Shown piece after piece: positions 38,420-45,836 of a stretch of DNA of 64,000 bases (its first letter is position 1; each line of letters begins with the position of its first letter). The stretch is taken from the NCBI GenBank assembly GCA_025934485.1, contig JAICXX010000011.1, forward strand, positions 1 to 64,000, given 5' to 3'. The DNA comes from Chitinophagaceae bacterium (GTDB lineage: Bacteria; Bacteroidota; Bacteroidia; Chitinophagales; Chitinophagaceae). The notes beneath the pieces are model-generated. The model did not search any database. It saw only the letters and a program-made list of their open reading frames with translations, and was not told the DNA's origin. Position numbers and translations under genes: made by a program.

Positions 38420-39265
38420 CTACAGCTCGACGTGCAGATCGTTGCGCAATTTTTCCGGATCTACTATCGTGTTTATCTGCATGATCTTTCCTTCGCTGTC
38501 GAACTCGAAGACCTGGCAAACGGCTAGCCGGTCGCCGTCGTAGTAGACCAACGCCGGCTGATAGTTGACCCAGATAAGCCGCATCGTCAGACGCTGCAGG
38601 AACCGGTAATAGGCCAACATCGCCAATTCTGCGACATCATGCGCGCCCACACATTCTTTCTTCACCACATGCAGCCTGGTGCCACCGTCCGCATAATAGG
38701 CGATGTCTGCGGAGAGCAAACTTTCCAATTGCGGAACGTCTCGTCGCTGGATGGCGTCCATATACCGCTCGAGGAGCATGGAGGTTTGGGCGTCCCTGTC
38801 CACTGTGCCGGGCCCAGGCTTGAATAGCTTGGCTTTGGCCCGGCTGAGCAGCTTACGGGAATGCTCTTCCGTGATCGACAAAACCCCGGCAATCTCCTGG
38901 TGGCTATAGTCGAAGCTTTCCTTTAAAATGAAAACAGCCCTTTCCGTGGCATGCAGTTTTTCGAGCAGCACCAGCAATGAATAGGACAGGATATCCTTGA
39001 GGTAAAGGTTGCGATCCGCCGCGTCGTCGGTAGCGACGGGTTCGGGCAGCCAGACTTCTGACTGCCCGATGATCTTCCTTTTCCGTTTTTTGGCGTTGAT
39101 GGCCCGGTTGATGACACTTTGGATGAGATAGTTCTTCTCGTCCCCGACGTCCGCCCGATCGTGGGCAACATAATTGGATAGTACGTCCTGAATGACATCC
39201 TTGGCGTCTTCGGCCGAACCGAGGATGTTGTACGCGTATGGAAATAGGATCCGTTGGTCGATCAT
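38420..39265 (-). CDS. ECF41-type (SigJ-like) sigma factor with SnoaL-like C-terminal domain
   Basis: The 281-residue protein has a sigma region 2 (about 1-60), a region 4 helix-turn-helix (about 105-145: FDYSHQEIAGVLSITEEHSRKLLSRAKAKL) and a C-terminal SnoaL-like fold (about 160-281). Signature motifs of the ECF41 group are present: WLPEP at 72-76, DGGTR at 193-197 (group consensus DGGGK) and DPEKL at 269-273 (consensus NPDKL). In this group the C-terminal domain replaces an anti-sigma factor. The gene follows a carboxymuconolactone decarboxylase-family gene by 8 bp, the classic ECF41 neighbour. Confidence 0.93.
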   Translation of the reverse strand: MIDQRILFPYAYNILGSAEDAKDVIQDVLSNYVAHDRADVGDEKNYLIQSVINRAINAKKRKRKIIGQSEVWLPEPVATDDAADRNLYLKDILSYSLLVLLEKLHATERAVFILKESFDYSHQEIAGVLSITEEHSRKLLSRAKAKLFKPGPGTVDRDAQTSMLLERYMDAIQRRDVPQLESLLSADIAYYADGGTRLHVVKKECVGAHDVAELAMLAYYRFLQRLTMRLIWVNYQPALVYYDGDRLAVCQVFEFDSEGKIMQINTIVDPEKLRNDLHVEL

Positions 39266-39273
39266 AAGCTGTA

Positions 39274-39726
39274 TTATGCGTGTTGCCCCACTTTATACCC
39301 GCCCGGAACCGTCCGGAACGCGCGGTTGAGCCTGTTCCAGGTGTTAATGGTCGCAACGGCCAGTGTAAGGTCGGCAATTTCCTTTTTACTGAAAAATTCC
39401 GTGAGGGCATCGAAGACCTCGTCTTCCACATTACCCGCAGTCACCGCTTCCGCGTAGGCCAGCGCAGCGCGTTCTTTATCTGAATAATAGGGGCAATCCC
39501 GCCAGGCGGCCACGGAATAGAGGCGTTGTTCCGACTCACCCCTGGCAACGGCATCCTTGAAATGCATATCCAGACAATAGGCACAGCCATTGATCGTAGA
39601 GACATGGAAATCTATGAGTTCTATCAAATTAGGCTCGAGTCCGGACCTGCGGATATATACACCGGGTTTTAGTAATACTTCCATGAACTCTTTGGAGGTT
39701 TCTTCAAATGAGATCCTTGCTTTCAT
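39274..39726 (-). CDS. Carboxymuconolactone decarboxylase-family (AhpD-like) protein
   Basis: The 150-residue helical protein has the redox motif CAYCLDMH, with ERAALAYAEAVTAG further on, which places it with AhpD-like peroxidase/CMD proteins. These act as small peroxidatic or reductase subunits; the substrate here is unknown. It is upstream of the ECF41 sigma gene and a likely target of it. Confidence 0.93.
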   Translation of the reverse strand: MKARISFEETSKEFMEVLLKPGVYIRRSGLEPNLIELIDFHVSTINGCAYCLDMHFKDAVARGESEQRLYSVAAWRDCPYYSDKERAALAYAEAVTAGNVEDEVFDALTEFFSKKEIADLTLAVATINTWNRLNRAFRTVPGGYKVGQHA

Positions 39727-39809: not shown

Positions 39810-40796
39810 TTAATGCCGTTGATGGGCCTGCATTATCGGGAGGAAAGGGCCGAATTTGTGTGTCTCCGCCGGAAAACTGTCTATGAAGGGGCCAAAGGGA
39901 TAATCCACCGGTTTAAGCGAGATGTCCGGCCAGTCCGCTGGAAAATCCCGGACCGGCCTGGGTTGGGAATTGATAAACGCCGAAAGGTCCCAGGCCTCAT
40001 CGGCCGACAGTTCCATCGTTCGGTAATCTGCGCCAAAAGGCATGTTGTAGCGTATGAACCCTGCGAGGCGGGCGACGCGGAAAAAGCCTGCGGCTGTATT
40101 GTAGCTGTTATCGCCCCACAGCGGAGGATAGGTATACGTTCGTGCGTTGTTGTCCTTTAATCCCTCGCCGTTGGGCCCATGGCAGCGACTGCATTTCGTC
40201 TCGTAGGATCTTTTCCCTTTTTCCGGATCGGCGGCCCGGTCCATAAAGGAGAGAACTGCAATACCGCTGCCTGCCGGCTTTTTCCCTTTGGACACACCCG
40301 TTCCCAGCCACTGCATATAGGCGATCATGGCCCGGACTTCCCTGGACGTGCTGTCCGGTGCCTCCCCGTTAAGACTGCGCTGAAAACAGTCAGCTATGCG
40401 TTGGGCAATGCTTTCCAATCCACCTCGCCGTTCCTTGAATTTGGGATAGGTGGATGCAACACCCCCGAAATTGTTTCCCCAGGGCTGTCGCCCTGCCTTT
40501 AAATGACAGTTCTGGCAGTCCAGTCCGTTCTGTCGCCTGTCGATGGTGCCAGCAGGCCCAAAATAATAGCCTGTGCGGGCGATGAGGTCCTGGCCATATC
40601 GGACGAGGGCACCTTCGGGCCCGTCTGTTATCGATATACTGTCGGGTGCCTGCCAGAGCGAGTCTGCAGGGGGCTTCGCGGGTGTCGTGGCCTGTACGCG
40701 CCGGGATGGGGCACGCATGTAATGGAGGAGTAACTCTCCAGCCGCCAGCGCCACGATAATGATGATCGTTACGGCCGGCATGATCCTGGTTTTCAT
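39810..40796 (-). CDS. Diheme cytochrome c, periplasmic, TsdA-like
   Basis: I start at ATG 40796, giving 328 residues with an N-terminal anchor or signal (about 8-25). Two c-heme sites are clear: CQNCH at 94-98 and CSRCH at 202-206, each followed by a cytochrome c domain. The pattern (GPAGTIDRRQNGLDCQNCHLKAG, GNNFGGVASTYP) resembles thiosulfate dehydrogenase TsdA-type and related diheme proteins. The gene overlaps the preceding DsrE-like gene in a TGATG arrangement, so the two are coupled, consistent with a sulfur-compound role. Confidence 0.9.
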   Translation of the reverse strand: MKTRIMPAVTIIIIVALAAGELLLHYMRAPSRRVQATTPAKPPADSLWQAPDSISITDGPEGALVRYGQDLIARTGYYFGPAGTIDRRQNGLDCQNCHLKAGRQPWGNNFGGVASTYPKFKERRGGLESIAQRIADCFQRSLNGEAPDSTSREVRAMIAYMQWLGTGVSKGKKPAGSGIAVLSFMDRAADPEKGKRSYETKCSRCHGPNGEGLKDNNARTYTYPPLWGDNSYNTAAGFFRVARLAGFIRYNMPFGADYRTMELSADEAWDLSAFINSQPRPVRDFPADWPDISLKPVDYPFGPFIDSFPAETHKFGPFLPIMQAHQRH

Positions 40797-41509
40797 CAGC
40801 CGGCAAAGCAATAGGTACACCCATGCTCCTGCGCGCGACCTACCGCCCAAACACCCGATGGCATAGGCTGAATGGAGGGAAGTATGCCAGCAAGCCATTC
40901 GGTTTTGACCGCACTGCCATCCATATTAGCATGCATACCCGCGACAGCGCTAAATACGGTAAGGGCTACATCGCAAACACAAAACAATACCCCACTAGCC
41001 TGCAGATCGCGGATACCGATCGCCACCGGTCCGATGCCAGGGATCTTGAAATCTTCGGGACGCGTCTCCCAATACGGATTTCGGGTAGCCGGCGCCGATG
41101 TACGGGGGTCATTGATCTTGAACATTTCCCCAAATTTGTACTTTGCCCACAGGTCATCGCCCATCGCGTAAGGGATCGCCTCGTGGCGCAGGACGACGAC
41201 TACGCTGCAATCCCTTTCGGTTGTTCCGGTAGCGGCGTTGGTCAATAAGAAAACTTTGGGCCATGCAAATGTCATCATCTCCTTGGGCGCCGGGGCGTCG
41301 AAGACGATCTTGTGTTTCCCTTTGATATTGGCGCTGAACCATTCGTCGGGGTCCGACAGATCGGCGACGGCAGACGAATCGCTTTCCTTTGCGGTTTGCG
41401 AAGCCGCTGCCAATGTAAAATTGCTCATTCCGAGAAGCGCGGCGGTGCCGGCTAGCTTTCCCAGAAAATTCCGCCTGTTGCCAAGCTGATTTTGATGGAT
41501 TGTGCGCAT
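40796..41509 (-). CDS. Tat-exported DsrE-like protein
   Basis: The 237-residue product has a twin-arginine signal (NRRNFLGKLAG followed by a hydrophobic stretch). The mature part matches the DsrE/YchN-like fold, ending in GVWAVGRAQEHGCTYCFAG with a conserved Cys-x-x-Cys near the end, plus CVCDVALTVFSAVAG. DsrE proteins handle sulfur or act in redox partner roles. It is translationally coupled to a diheme cytochrome c (TGATG overlap), so the pair probably forms a periplasmic electron-transfer unit; substrate unknown. Confidence 0.75.
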   Translation of the reverse strand: MRTIHQNQLGNRRNFLGKLAGTAALLGMSNFTLAAASQTAKESDSSAVADLSDPDEWFSANIKGKHKIVFDAPAPKEMMTFAWPKVFLLTNAATGTTERDCSVVVVLRHEAIPYAMGDDLWAKYKFGEMFKINDPRTSAPATRNPYWETRPEDFKIPGIGPVAIGIRDLQASGVLFCVCDVALTVFSAVAGMHANMDGSAVKTEWLAGILPSIQPMPSGVWAVGRAQEHGCTYCFAG

Positions 41510-42307: not shown

Positions 42308-44446
42308 TTATGCCAGCTGGTGCGCGGCAAATTTATGATATTCATCGATCAACCGGCGCTGGATCTCGGCGGGGACCGGGGCATATTCGAGGAACTTCAT
42401 GCGAAATTTGGCACGGCCCTGGGTGAGCGACCGGAGTGTCGAAGAGTAGTCGTGCATTTCCGCCAGGGGAACGCGGGCGATGATCTTGGTAAAATGTGCT
42501 TCCGTGTCCATTCCTTCCATGATAGCGCGACGGGTTTGAAGATCGCTGATGATGCCACCGGTGAGCTCATCCGGACATAACACGGTCACGGAATATACGG
42601 GTTCGAGGATTTGGGGATCGGCCTGCTGAAATGCCTGTTTGAAGGCCATCATGCCCGCAATCTTAAACGAGATGTCGTTGGAGTCGACGGGATGCATCTT
42701 GCCATCGTAGACGATCACGCGGACGTCACGGACATGCGAGCCCGTGAGCGGCCCCTCGTGCATCTTGTCCATAACGCCCTTGAGTATAGAGGGCAGAAAA
42801 CGCTGATCTATGGCGCCGCCGACGATGCAATTCAAAAAAACCAGCTTTCCACCCCAGTCCAGCTGAAATTCTTCGCGGCCACGCACGGAGAGTCCTTTGG
42901 GATCGGGCATGCCTTCAAACCAGGGCTCTACCTGCATGTATACTTCGCCGAACTGCCCTGCTCCCCCCGATTGCTTTTTATGACGGTAGCTGGATTGCAC
43001 CGGTTTGCGTATCGTTTCCCTATAGGGGATGCGTGGCTGGCTGAAGCTCGCCCGCAGGTTTTTGGAAATATGTTCCAGTTTCCATTTTATTACTGCGAGA
43101 TGCAGCTCGCCCTGGCAGTGGATGATGGTCTGCTTGAGCTCCTGCGACATCTCGAGCAATACGGTGGGATCTTCCTCACAGATCTGCCGGATCGCCGTAG
43201 CAAGCTTTTCCTCCTCGCCCTTTTGCGCCGATTCGATGGCAATACTCATGAGGGGGGAAGGGAATTCGATTGGATAGAGCTCCAGGTCTTTCCCCGGAGC
43301 ATAGAGGGTATTGTTGACGTGCGTATGTTTGAGCTTGATCGTGGCGCCGATATCTCCTGCCGACAATTCATTAACCGGAATACGCTTGTTGCCTTCCACC
43401 ACGAAGAGCTGGTTGATCTTTTCTATTGCACCATCGGCGCCATTGACCAGCTCCATACCCGCCCTGACCGTCCCGCTATAGACTTTGAAGAAGGACATCT
43501 CGCCGATGTGACTTTCGGAAAGGACCTTGTAGACAAAGAGACAGGGGGGGCCGGCGGGATCGCAGGGAAGATATTCGCCGTTCACGGTGAGCTGCGGCGG
43601 CATGTCGGCAGGCCCGGGACAGATATTGTCGATGAAACCCATGAGCCGCCCGCTGCCCATGTTCTTTTTCGCGGAGAGACAAAAAAGAGGGAACAGATCG
43701 TGATTGATCATGGCTTTCTTGAGCCCCTGCCGCATCTCGTTCTCTTCCAGATTGCCCTTTTCGAAATATTTTTCCATGAGGGTTTCGTCGTTGCCGGCGA
43801 TGGCTTCGATGAGATCCTTGTGGAGCTGATCTGCTTTAGCCCTTTCCGTTTCCTGAATGGGCAGTTTTTCCGGCCGGCCGCCTTCGGCGGGAAACCGGTA
43901 TTGTGTCATCTGCAGCACATCGACGATGGTGTTAAAGCCCAGTCCCTGGTTCAGCGGATACTGCACGATCACAACTTTGTTGCTGAAATGGTCGCGGGCC
44001 TGTGCCACCGTCCGGTCGAAGTCCGCCTTATCCTGATCGAGTTTGTTAACGGCAATCACCATGGGTGTCCGGAAGCGTTCCGTATAATCCCATATGATGT
44101 CCGCGCCTACTTCCACGCCGAAATTCGCATTGAGGAGCAAGACGCCGGTGTCCGCCACACGTAGCGAGGCGAGTACGTCGCCTGCGAAGTCGTCGTAGCC
44201 GGGGGTATCCATGATGTTGATCTTATAGCCGCGCCACTGCGTATGCAAGAGCTTGGAAAAGATCGAGTTGCCTCGTTGCTGTTCCAGCTCGTAAAAATCG
44301 CTGACGGTATTCTTTTCTTCGATGGTGCCGCGCCGGGTGGTGAGTCCCGCCTCGTAAAGCATACATTCGGACAGGGTGGTCTTGCCAGAACCGGCATGAC
44401 CGAGCAATACAATGTTTTTGACGTGAGAGGTGTCAAAGCTAGTCAT
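42308..44446 (-). CDS. EF-G paralogue with altered GTPase centre (EF-G2-like)
   Basis: Starting at ATG 44446 the 712-residue protein has the five EF-G domains: P-loop GHAGSGKT at 16-23, NKLD at 134-137, and the tip and C-terminal domains. The switch II motif, normally DTPGH, reads DTPGY at 80-84, so the catalytic His is replaced by Tyr84; switch I has RGNSI where canonical EF-G has RGITI. Bacteroides EF-G2 paralogues that lack GTPase activity have been reported, and this protein may be an orthologue. A canonical fusA gene is expected elsewhere. The frame stays open 54 codons further upstream without EF-G homology. Confidence 0.9.
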   Translation of the reverse strand: MTSFDTSHVKNIVLLGHAGSGKTTLSECMLYEAGLTTRRGTIEEKNTVSDFYELEQQRGNSIFSKLLHTQWRGYKINIMDTPGYDDFAGDVLASLRVADTGVLLLNANFGVEVGADIIWDYTERFRTPMVIAVNKLDQDKADFDRTVAQARDHFSNKVVIVQYPLNQGLGFNTIVDVLQMTQYRFPAEGGRPEKLPIQETERAKADQLHKDLIEAIAGNDETLMEKYFEKGNLEENEMRQGLKKAMINHDLFPLFCLSAKKNMGSGRLMGFIDNICPGPADMPPQLTVNGEYLPCDPAGPPCLFVYKVLSESHIGEMSFFKVYSGTVRAGMELVNGADGAIEKINQLFVVEGNKRIPVNELSAGDIGATIKLKHTHVNNTLYAPGKDLELYPIEFPSPLMSIAIESAQKGEEEKLATAIRQICEEDPTVLLEMSQELKQTIIHCQGELHLAVIKWKLEHISKNLRASFSQPRIPYRETIRKPVQSSYRHKKQSGGAGQFGEVYMQVEPWFEGMPDPKGLSVRGREEFQLDWGGKLVFLNCIVGGAIDQRFLPSILKGVMDKMHEGPLTGSHVRDVRVIVYDGKMHPVDSNDISFKIAGMMAFKQAFQQADPQILEPVYSVTVLCPDELTGGIISDLQTRRAIMEGMDTEAHFTKIIARVPLAEMHDYSSTLRSLTQGRAKFRMKFLEYAPVPAEIQRRLIDEYHKFAAHQLA

Positions 44447-44783: not shown

Positions 44784-45836
44784 CTAGTCTTGAACGGCCC
44801 AGGCCATGCCGTCGGGGACGCCGCCGACGTCGAGATGGCCGGTGATCTCCAGCGTTTTGAGGTCGACGATGGCGATGTTGTTATCGGCGGAGCAGGCGAC
44901 GAAGGCGCGGTGGCCTTCGGGGTCCATGAGGATGCCGGCGGCGCCGTGGCCAGTCTTCAGGTGCTTGATCTCTTTGTGGGTGTGCGCATCATAGATCGTC
45001 AATTCCCCCGAGGAAAGACTCGTAATAAATACCTGTGAGCCATCGGGGGTGAACTTGAGGCGGTTCGCGCCGCGGACGCCCGCGTCGAGTGTCGCCGACA
45101 GCTGTTTTGCCTGGAGGTCGATGATGAATATGGTGCCATCGCCGGCGCCGGCCGTCCAGAGTTCGCGGCCATCGGGGGATACGTCGAACCCTTCCGACCC
45201 ACGGCCCACGGGGATCACCGTCTGTCGCCAATCTTCGTGGGGGCGGGCGCCGGGAGGAGGACCTTGCGCGCCGGGAGGCGGGCCTTGCGCTCCAGGGGGC
45301 GGGCCGGGTTGCACCAGTGTATCGATGAGGATACTCACGGTCCCGGAATTGACATTGGTAGTATAGATACGGCGGCCATCGGGCGTCACATAGAGCATAT
45401 GCGTTCTATCCTGGCCCGTACCCATGCTCCAGTCGAGGCGGCCCGTTGCAGGATCATATCGCCCAACGGCTTTGGAGCCTTCCGCGGTGAACCAGGCCTT
45501 GCCGTTCTCGAAGACCAGTCCGTGGGGACCGAACAGGGGCCGGGTGTCGACGGCGGGCAAAGGTTTTTGCCCGATGAGATCGAGAATATCCAGTTCGTGC
45601 AGGCTACCGCCGCCATAAATCGAAACAAAGGCTGTTTTGCCGTCGGCGGAGGCGATCACTTCGTGCGGGTCCTCTCCTACCGGGATACGTGCGACGACCC
45701 TCAATGTCGAAGGATCGACAATGGCCAGGGTATGATTGGTTTTGGAAAGCGCGAGCAGCGCCCGGCGCGGCGTCGGCTGGGCATTACAGGCTACTACCCC
45801 CGAGAGGGCGGCGATGAAGAGATAAGAACGTATCAT
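44784..45836 (-). CDS. YncE-like beta-propeller lipoprotein with GPPPGAQ insert
   Basis: The 350-residue protein has a lipobox (SGVVAC, Cys17) and YVTN/YncE-type propeller repeats such as NHTLAIVDPSTLRVVARIPVG and GTIFIIDLQAKQLSATLDAG. A loop near 178-200 carries three GPPPGA(Q/R) heptads encoded by a 21-bp tandem repeat, a proline-rich insertion not part of the propeller fold. Such proteins are periplasmic or outer-membrane lipoproteins of uncertain function, often thought to bind ligands. Confidence 0.88.
   Translation of the reverse strand: MIRSYLFIAALSGVVACNAQPTPRRALLALSKTNHTLAIVDPSTLRVVARIPVGEDPHEVIASADGKTAFVSIYGGGSLHELDILDLIGQKPLPAVDTRPLFGPHGLVFENGKAWFTAEGSKAVGRYDPATGRLDWSMGTGQDRTHMLYVTPDGRRIYTTNVNSGTVSILIDTLVQPGPPPGAQGPPPGAQGPPPGARPHEDWRQTVIPVGRGSEGFDVSPDGRELWTAGAGDGTIFIIDLQAKQLSATLDAGVRGANRLKFTPDGSQVFITSLSSGELTIYDAHTHKEIKHLKTGHGAAGILMDPEGHRAFVACSADNNIAIVDLKTLEITGHLDVGGVPDGMAWAVQD
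45247..45309 (-). repeat. 21-bp tandem repeat, three copies, in the propeller gene
   Basis: Three 21-bp units (45247-45267, 45268-45288, 45289-45309) encode the heptads GPPPGAQ, GPPPGAQ and a diverged third copy. In-frame length suggests expansion by slippage. Confidence 0.85.

Follow-up and report, generated by a model that had tools for sequence, protein, structure and literature searches.

An accessory EF-G2 with tyrosine at the switch II histidine position, an ordinary Bacteroidota member of the EFG II subfamily

The analyzed stretch of DNA (64,000 nucleotides, here called the window) contains a gene for an EF-G paralogue, which the original prediction had placed at exactly the coordinates listed in Table 1, with no strand stated. 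The gene lies on the minus strand as a single frame unbroken by internal stops, and frame 1 of the plus strand over the same interval contains two stops. The longest open reading frame (ORF) comprises 766 amino acids (aa) and begins upstream; the family profile starts at the ATG of the 712-aa form. A GTP-binding domain, domain 2, domains III and IV, and the EF-G C terminus were recognized in this protein by Pfam, and its AlphaFold2 model had a mean pLDDT of 90.5. DTPGY in switch II and RGNSI in switch I were present as predicted, and the GTP-binding motifs G1, G3, G4, and G5 are all intact. Tyr84 shares a column with the His of EF-G in pairwise comparisons with solved EF-Gs as well as in alignments of 142 and 182 proteins. 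The position of the P-loop Asp of canonical EF-G, which is assigned to monovalent-cation binding (PMC4342817), is occupied by Gly19.

Table 1. Positions in the window of the EF-G2 gene, of its motifs and insertion, and of the next ORF
Feature	Position	Strand	Remarks
EF-G2 / EFG II-type EF-G paralogue	42308..44446	-	712 aa, start ATG at 44446
P-loop (G1) GHAGSGKTT	44375..44401	-	residues 16-24
Switch I (G2) RGNSI	44261..44275	-	residues 58-62; Ser61 replaces Mg-coordinating Thr
Switch II (G3) DTPGY	44195..44209	-	residues 80-84; Tyr84 (44195-44197) at EF-G His position
G4 NKLD	44036..44047	-	residues 134-137, intact
G5 SAK	43667..43675	-	residues 258-260
Domain IV insertion GMPDPKGLSVRGREEFQLDWGG	42848..42913	-	residues 512-533
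Next ORF downstream, 208 aa	41676..42302	-	weak DUF2007 match, under cut-off; starts 5 bp past EF-G2 stop

The protein passed the NCBIfam model for the EFG II subfamily (NF009381, PRK12740.1-5) with 869.7 bits against a cut-off of 583, and it stayed at 523.4 bits below the cut-off of 659.4 for canonical EF-G (TIGR00484), carrying DTPGY and not DTPGH. The match to NF058620 (EFG2_Bacteroid) was full length (residues 1 to 705 on model positions 1 to 713 of 717) and, at 991.8 bits, fell 8 bits short of the cut-off of 1000, a strict threshold, as it was passed by just 24 of the 58 relatives and by 5 of the 148 genomes from the phylum. The structure closest to the model was 8dmf, the ribosome-bound EF-G2 of Bacteroides thetaiotaomicron (TM-score of 0.93, normalized to query length); with 50% sequence identity to that protein, the predicted homology to Bacteroides EF-G2 held. 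Both proteins fell into one clade (support, 0.996), apart from canonical EF-G and the other EFG II proteins, and the corresponding clade of a smaller tree comprised 109 proteins (support, 0.906). The window protein also displays the traits of the EFG II subfamily, namely, a relaxed switch I (RGNSI), Gly19 in the P-loop, and a second EF-G in the genome. A Gly in the P-loop is a published EFG II feature (PMC4342817), and PMC3150367 describes both the relaxation of RGITI to xxxSx as typical of the subfamily and the rule that another EF-G accompanies EFG II in a genome. The altered switch I noted in the original prediction is real and is a typical EFG II motif (PMC3150367).

The window sits in contig C350 of a genome of 6.75 Mb that is 93% complete. 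One other full-length EF-G was found in this genome (C355:1785-3887); it carries the motifs AHIDAGKTT, ERGITI, and DTPGH and is 31.6% identical to the window protein. The two genes ahead of it were recognized by eye as what we take to be rpsL (S12) and rpsG (S7), i.e., the str operon. A normal fusA of the str-operon type is therefore present elsewhere in the genome, and the absence of a second EF-G gene is ruled out.

His was found at residue 84 in all 30 canonical EF-Gs and in none of 152 EFG II/EF-G2 proteins. Among 109 Bacteroidota EF-G2s (our own label; two of the named records, L047 and L094, are titled as other groups), the position is taken by Tyr (29), Leu (24), Phe (21), Ser (21), Ala (10), Met (2), Asn (1), or Thr (1), and the P-loop Asp is absent from all 108 in which residue 19 could be read. 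Of five EFG II proteins from Fusobacteriota and Bacillota, four carry Tyr and one carries Asn at residue 84. The set of 109 consisted of the window protein, 80 named loci, 27 proteins from the search of relatives, and the B. thetaiotaomicron chain; 40 stretches, hand-picked rather than random, were added from the 148 genomes surveyed across the phylum (38 EFG II/EF-G2 and 2 canonical). A split gene (L036) and a duplicate of the window (L033) were omitted from the counts, L088 is without its N terminus and has a gap for residues 16 to 61, and L037, considered as an EF-G2 relative, proved to be canonical and was kept out of the EF-G2 alignments and trees. Two of the 24 short EFG II proteins, both from the phylum survey (L200 and L203), are set apart from the remaining 22 by having a canonical P-loop Asp (GHSDSGKT) together with Tyr84.

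Ancestral states were assigned by Fitch parsimony on FastTree trees built from one alignment each, and both may be misled by the long branches of EFG II. On the tree of 152 plus 30 proteins, Tyr was reconstructed as the ancestral residue 84 of the noncanonical clade. The position is labile, with 34 changes on this larger tree; on the smaller tree, from which L158 is absent (it is included in the larger one), the Bacteroidota ancestor is ambiguous (Thr or Tyr). All 18 full-length EF-G2s compared from the window's genus, the window included, are identical at Tyr84, Arg58, Gly59, Asn60, Ser61, and Lys135, and the other 17 show 77.5 to 93.0% overall identity to the window protein; given this conservation, Tyr84 in the window is not a matter of chance. 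It looks to have been inherited from the EFG II ancestor and retained, rather than to be a new lesion. The His-to-Tyr event supposed for this lineage was consequently not borne out, and a recent adaptation of this kind was rejected, as His is missing from every EFG II/EF-G2 protein compared and the reconstructed ancestral state is Tyr. Because the missing His is an old hallmark of the subfamily, the window gene looks like an ordinary member, and we conclude that it is an ordinary Bacteroidota EF-G2 within the EFG II subfamily, an accessory EF-G beside the canonical one.

The domain IV insertion is carried by 128 proteins of the set, which together make up a single clade (support, 0.996), and by none of the 24 short EFG II proteins. 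The compared stretch comprises 40 residues in the window protein versus 49 in B. thetaiotaomicron EF-G2. Han et al. (EMBO J 2022) reportedly made a 26-residue region unique to EF-G2 responsible for the absent GTPase in B. thetaiotaomicron. The domain IV insertion would be a candidate for this region, since it is the only such site in that protein, i.e., the sole place with at least 3 residues in columns that are gapped in at least 80% of the canonical rows. Six G-domain positions were tracked (19, 58, 61, 81, 84, and 135). The window protein agrees with the reconstructed EFG II ancestor at all of them, whereas B. thetaiotaomicron EF-G2 departs from it at four (Tyr58, Cys81, Ser84, and Gln135). 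Judged by the retention of NKLD, DTPG, and Arg58, the window protein is the less eroded of the two. The suggestion that it represents the same adaptation as Bacteroides EF-G2 can be kept with regard to the family, which is homologous, but not with regard to the residue, which is Ser in B. thetaiotaomicron (DCPGS). In most of the Bacteroidota EF-G2s compared, NQxD or NHxD stands in place of the G4 motif NKxD (Lys is present in 30 of 109 and missing from 79 of 109), an erosion that should weaken guanine-nucleotide binding. NKLD was kept in all 18 full-length EF-G2s compared from the window's genus.

The 208-aa ORF that follows EF-G2 is possibly cotranscribed with it. In the relatives searched, this gene was not adjacent to EF-G2 in any case; a homologue lies about 4 kb upstream of EF-G2 in locus L181. 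When seven window neighbors were sought beside EF-G2 at 109 other loci, where the flanking sequence was in many cases limited to 1.5 kb, a single transglycosylase match was obtained (L042). Eleven neighbors sought in 19 wider stretches yielded two matches, namely, the L181 homologue of the 208-aa gene and, in L183, a nitroreductase upstream of EF-G2 as in the window. L181 and L183, both near EF-G2 relatives, each have one gene of the window's wider surroundings. A conserved operon as a functional clue was rejected; because no directly adjacent gene is conserved, no operon partner hints at the function of EF-G2. A four-gene block follows EF-G2 on its 3′ side in 13 of 20 wider loci (L169 to L188), and these 13 include neither the window nor L181 or L183. 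Read by eye, the block presumably encodes a uracil-DNA glycosylase (ung), an acyltransferase, a large outer-membrane-type protein, and an amidase. Since it is missing after EF-G2 in the window, L181, and L183, the EF-G2 gene has apparently moved in these three. Elsewhere on the minus strand of the window, a beta-propeller protein (44784-45836) has the short tandem repeat PPPGAQG in its middle, a sigma-70-type factor gene adjoins a carboxymuconolactone decarboxylase gene (38420-39726), and a two-domain cytochrome c gene adjoins a 237-aa ORF without a Pfam match (39810-41509).

In Bacteroides, fusA2 is reported to be induced on carbon starvation by BT4338/Cur via an upstream site (PMC6989115). 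A Cur site is reported only for Bacteroides, and such a site is not required of the EF-G2 family. Our scan took in 99 upstream stretches, none longer than 350 bases and one of them from the window, which represent a subset of the EF-G2 loci (stretches of less than 100 bases were dropped); among the best 40 of the 99, eight loci matched the Cur site with at most two mismatches, including that of Bacteroides (L102) as the positive control. The other seven bear titles that we take to be Bacteroidales. Upstream of the window EF-G2, the best match had five mismatches and was equaled or bettered in 53 of 100 shuffles, and no Cur site was found near the EF-G2 gene within the window. A three-mismatch match at a Chitinophaga-titled locus (L043) was reached by 8 of 100 shuffles. 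Promoter and terminator scans gave no clear excess over shuffles. Control of the window EF-G2 by Cur and starvation, as in Bacteroides, is not supported by the upstream sequence; a different regulator may operate.

Within the genus and family, EF-G2 is accessory and patchily distributed. Among the 58 genomes of the relatives search, which include that of the window, 28 contained a match above 980 bits by our reading of the listing, and the others contained fragments or none; some genomes of the genus or family that are at least 99% complete (G008, G032, and G033) had no EF-G2-grade match. In the survey of the phylum, again by our reading, the match reached 749 bits or more in 54 of 148 genomes, and in another 56 the best match scored about 490 to 565 bits. 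All 19 proteins sampled from the latter group were EFG II proteins lacking both the insertion and His84. Among named EF-G2 loci, the four nearest (68 to 71% identity) are titled Chitinophagaceae (two), Chitinophagales, and Flavihumibacter.

From Tyr at the His position, the original prediction had derived a weak or absent GTPase, and this step is not supported. Thermus thermophilus EF-G-2 (1wdt), with DAPGY in switch II, is reported to have ribosome-dependent GTPase activity, and for Mycobacterium smegmatis EF-G2 (9k0z), with DTPGY, none is reported (PMC3832671, PMC3150367). Because Tyr is found in both the active and the inactive factor, Tyr84 does not predict GTPase activity. In Escherichia coli EF-G, H91Q hydrolyzes GTP like the wild type with slow release of Pi, and H91A, H91R, and H91E are impaired to varying degrees, Pi release being slow in all mutants; Tyr is not among the H91 mutants named in the available part of that paper (PMC4532990). 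No passage on the His position was found in the main text of PMC3150367. As far as these sequences go, Tyr84 by itself is neither the cause nor a marker of lost GTPase. A slow or dispensable GTPase in the window EF-G2 is plausible.

On balance, and with modest confidence, we favor the reading of the protein as a Bacteroidota EF-G2 that acts as an accessory translocase alongside the canonical str-operon EF-G, with GTP hydrolysis and/or Pi release being slow or dispensable. Such a factor would bind GTP as well as the ribosomal factor site and would promote tRNA-mRNA translocation, and under some conditions it may be a back-up translocase or one with a low energy demand, like B. thetaiotaomicron EF-G2, which is described as enabling GTP-independent translation (PMC10294740). 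Several features would speak against so close a likeness. The G domain is nearer to the reconstructed EFG II ground state (Lys135, Thr81, and Arg58 are kept), Tyr84 is the residue of the GTP-hydrolyzing T. thermophilus EF-G-2, the insertion is nine residues shorter, no Cur-like site lies upstream, and the sole Bacteroidota EF-G2 for which we found activity claims is 50% identical. It is possible, if on the whole unlikely, that the window protein is a GTP-hydrolyzing EFG II like T. thermophilus EF-G-2, in which Tyr84 is tolerated and ribosome-stimulated hydrolysis is usable. Besides the Tyr, the two share an identical P-loop (GHAGSGKTT), NKLD, DTPG, and Arg58 are intact in the window protein, T. 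thermophilus EF-G-2 is reported to be active (PMC3832671, PMC3150367), and the E. coli H91Q variant hydrolyzes normally; however, the window protein falls into the insertion-bearing clade of B. thetaiotaomicron rather than among the short EFG II proteins, and the other named E. coli mutants, Tyr not being one of them, were impaired (PMC4532990). We consider it improbable that the protein binds ribosomes without driving elongation, in recycling, protection, or storage, as M. smegmatis EF-G2 might. The latter also reads DTPGY, is bound to the 70S ribosome according to the title of entry 9k0z, and is reported to have no ribosome-dependent GTPase (PMC3832671), but B. thetaiotaomicron EF-G2 is the nearer of the two to the window protein, by its sequence as well as its fold (structure rank of 1 versus 43 for M. 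smegmatis), and translation activity is claimed for this closer relative (PMC10294740). The 7uvp/8dmf chains bear the molecule name "Tetracycline resistance protein TetQ," but membership of the window protein among the tetracycline ribosomal protection proteins is hardly credible and was rejected, since the title of entry 8dmf contradicts the chain name by giving B. thetaiotaomicron EF-G2 and the scores lie far under the cut-offs (271.7 bits versus 775 for the NCBIfam tetracycline-protection model and 133.5 versus 1425 for the TetQ model). The TetQ name on these B. thetaiotaomicron EF-G2 chains is a trap for automatic annotation.

Taken as a Bacteroidota EF-G2 with slow or dispensable hydrolysis, the window protein touches on a wider idea, which we regard as rather doubtful: translocation independent of fast GTP hydrolysis might be an ancient property of all EFG II, some lines (Thermus) having retained or recovered hydrolysis, and not a specialty of gut Bacteroides. 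An ancient origin is conceivable because the EFG II ancestor was already without the switch II His and, like nearly all members, without the P-loop Asp. An EF-G paralogue cannot be called GTPase-dead on the strength of a missing switch II His alone, which is a hallmark of the subfamily. Natural variants for testing the cause of GTP-independent translocation by EF-G2 are at hand in Tyr, Leu, Phe, Ser, or Ala at residue 84, in the insertion lengths, and in NKxD versus NQxD, and the window's genus supplies a less eroded relative of Bacteroides EF-G2.

Among known systems, canonical EF-G (EFG I, fusA) resembles the window protein in domain architecture and fold and differs in its motifs AHIDAGKTT, RGITI, and DTPGH, for which the window protein has GHAGSGKTT, RGNSI, and DTPGY. 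M. smegmatis EF-G2 (EFG II; 9k0z) shares DTPGY, a P-loop without Asp, and the role of accessory EF-G; it is 31% identical in the structural alignment and is reported to be without ribosome-dependent GTPase. T. thermophilus EF-G-2 (EFG II; 1wdt/2dy1), likewise an accessory EF-G, has the same GHAGSGKTT and the Tyr of DAPGY, whereas its identity is 30% (structural alignment), its chain has 665 residues, and GTP hydrolysis is reported for it. B. thetaiotaomicron EF-G2 (fusA2, BT2167; 8dmf/7uvp) differs in having Ser for Tyr84, DCPG for DTPG, NQLD for NKLD, Tyr for Arg58, and an insertion that is nine residues longer, and the Bacteroides locus L102 has a Cur-like site upstream of EF-G2, whereas the window gene has none; it is nevertheless the best match in both structure and sequence, belongs to the same clade with the domain IV insertion at the same site, and likewise has neither the switch II His nor the P-loop Asp.
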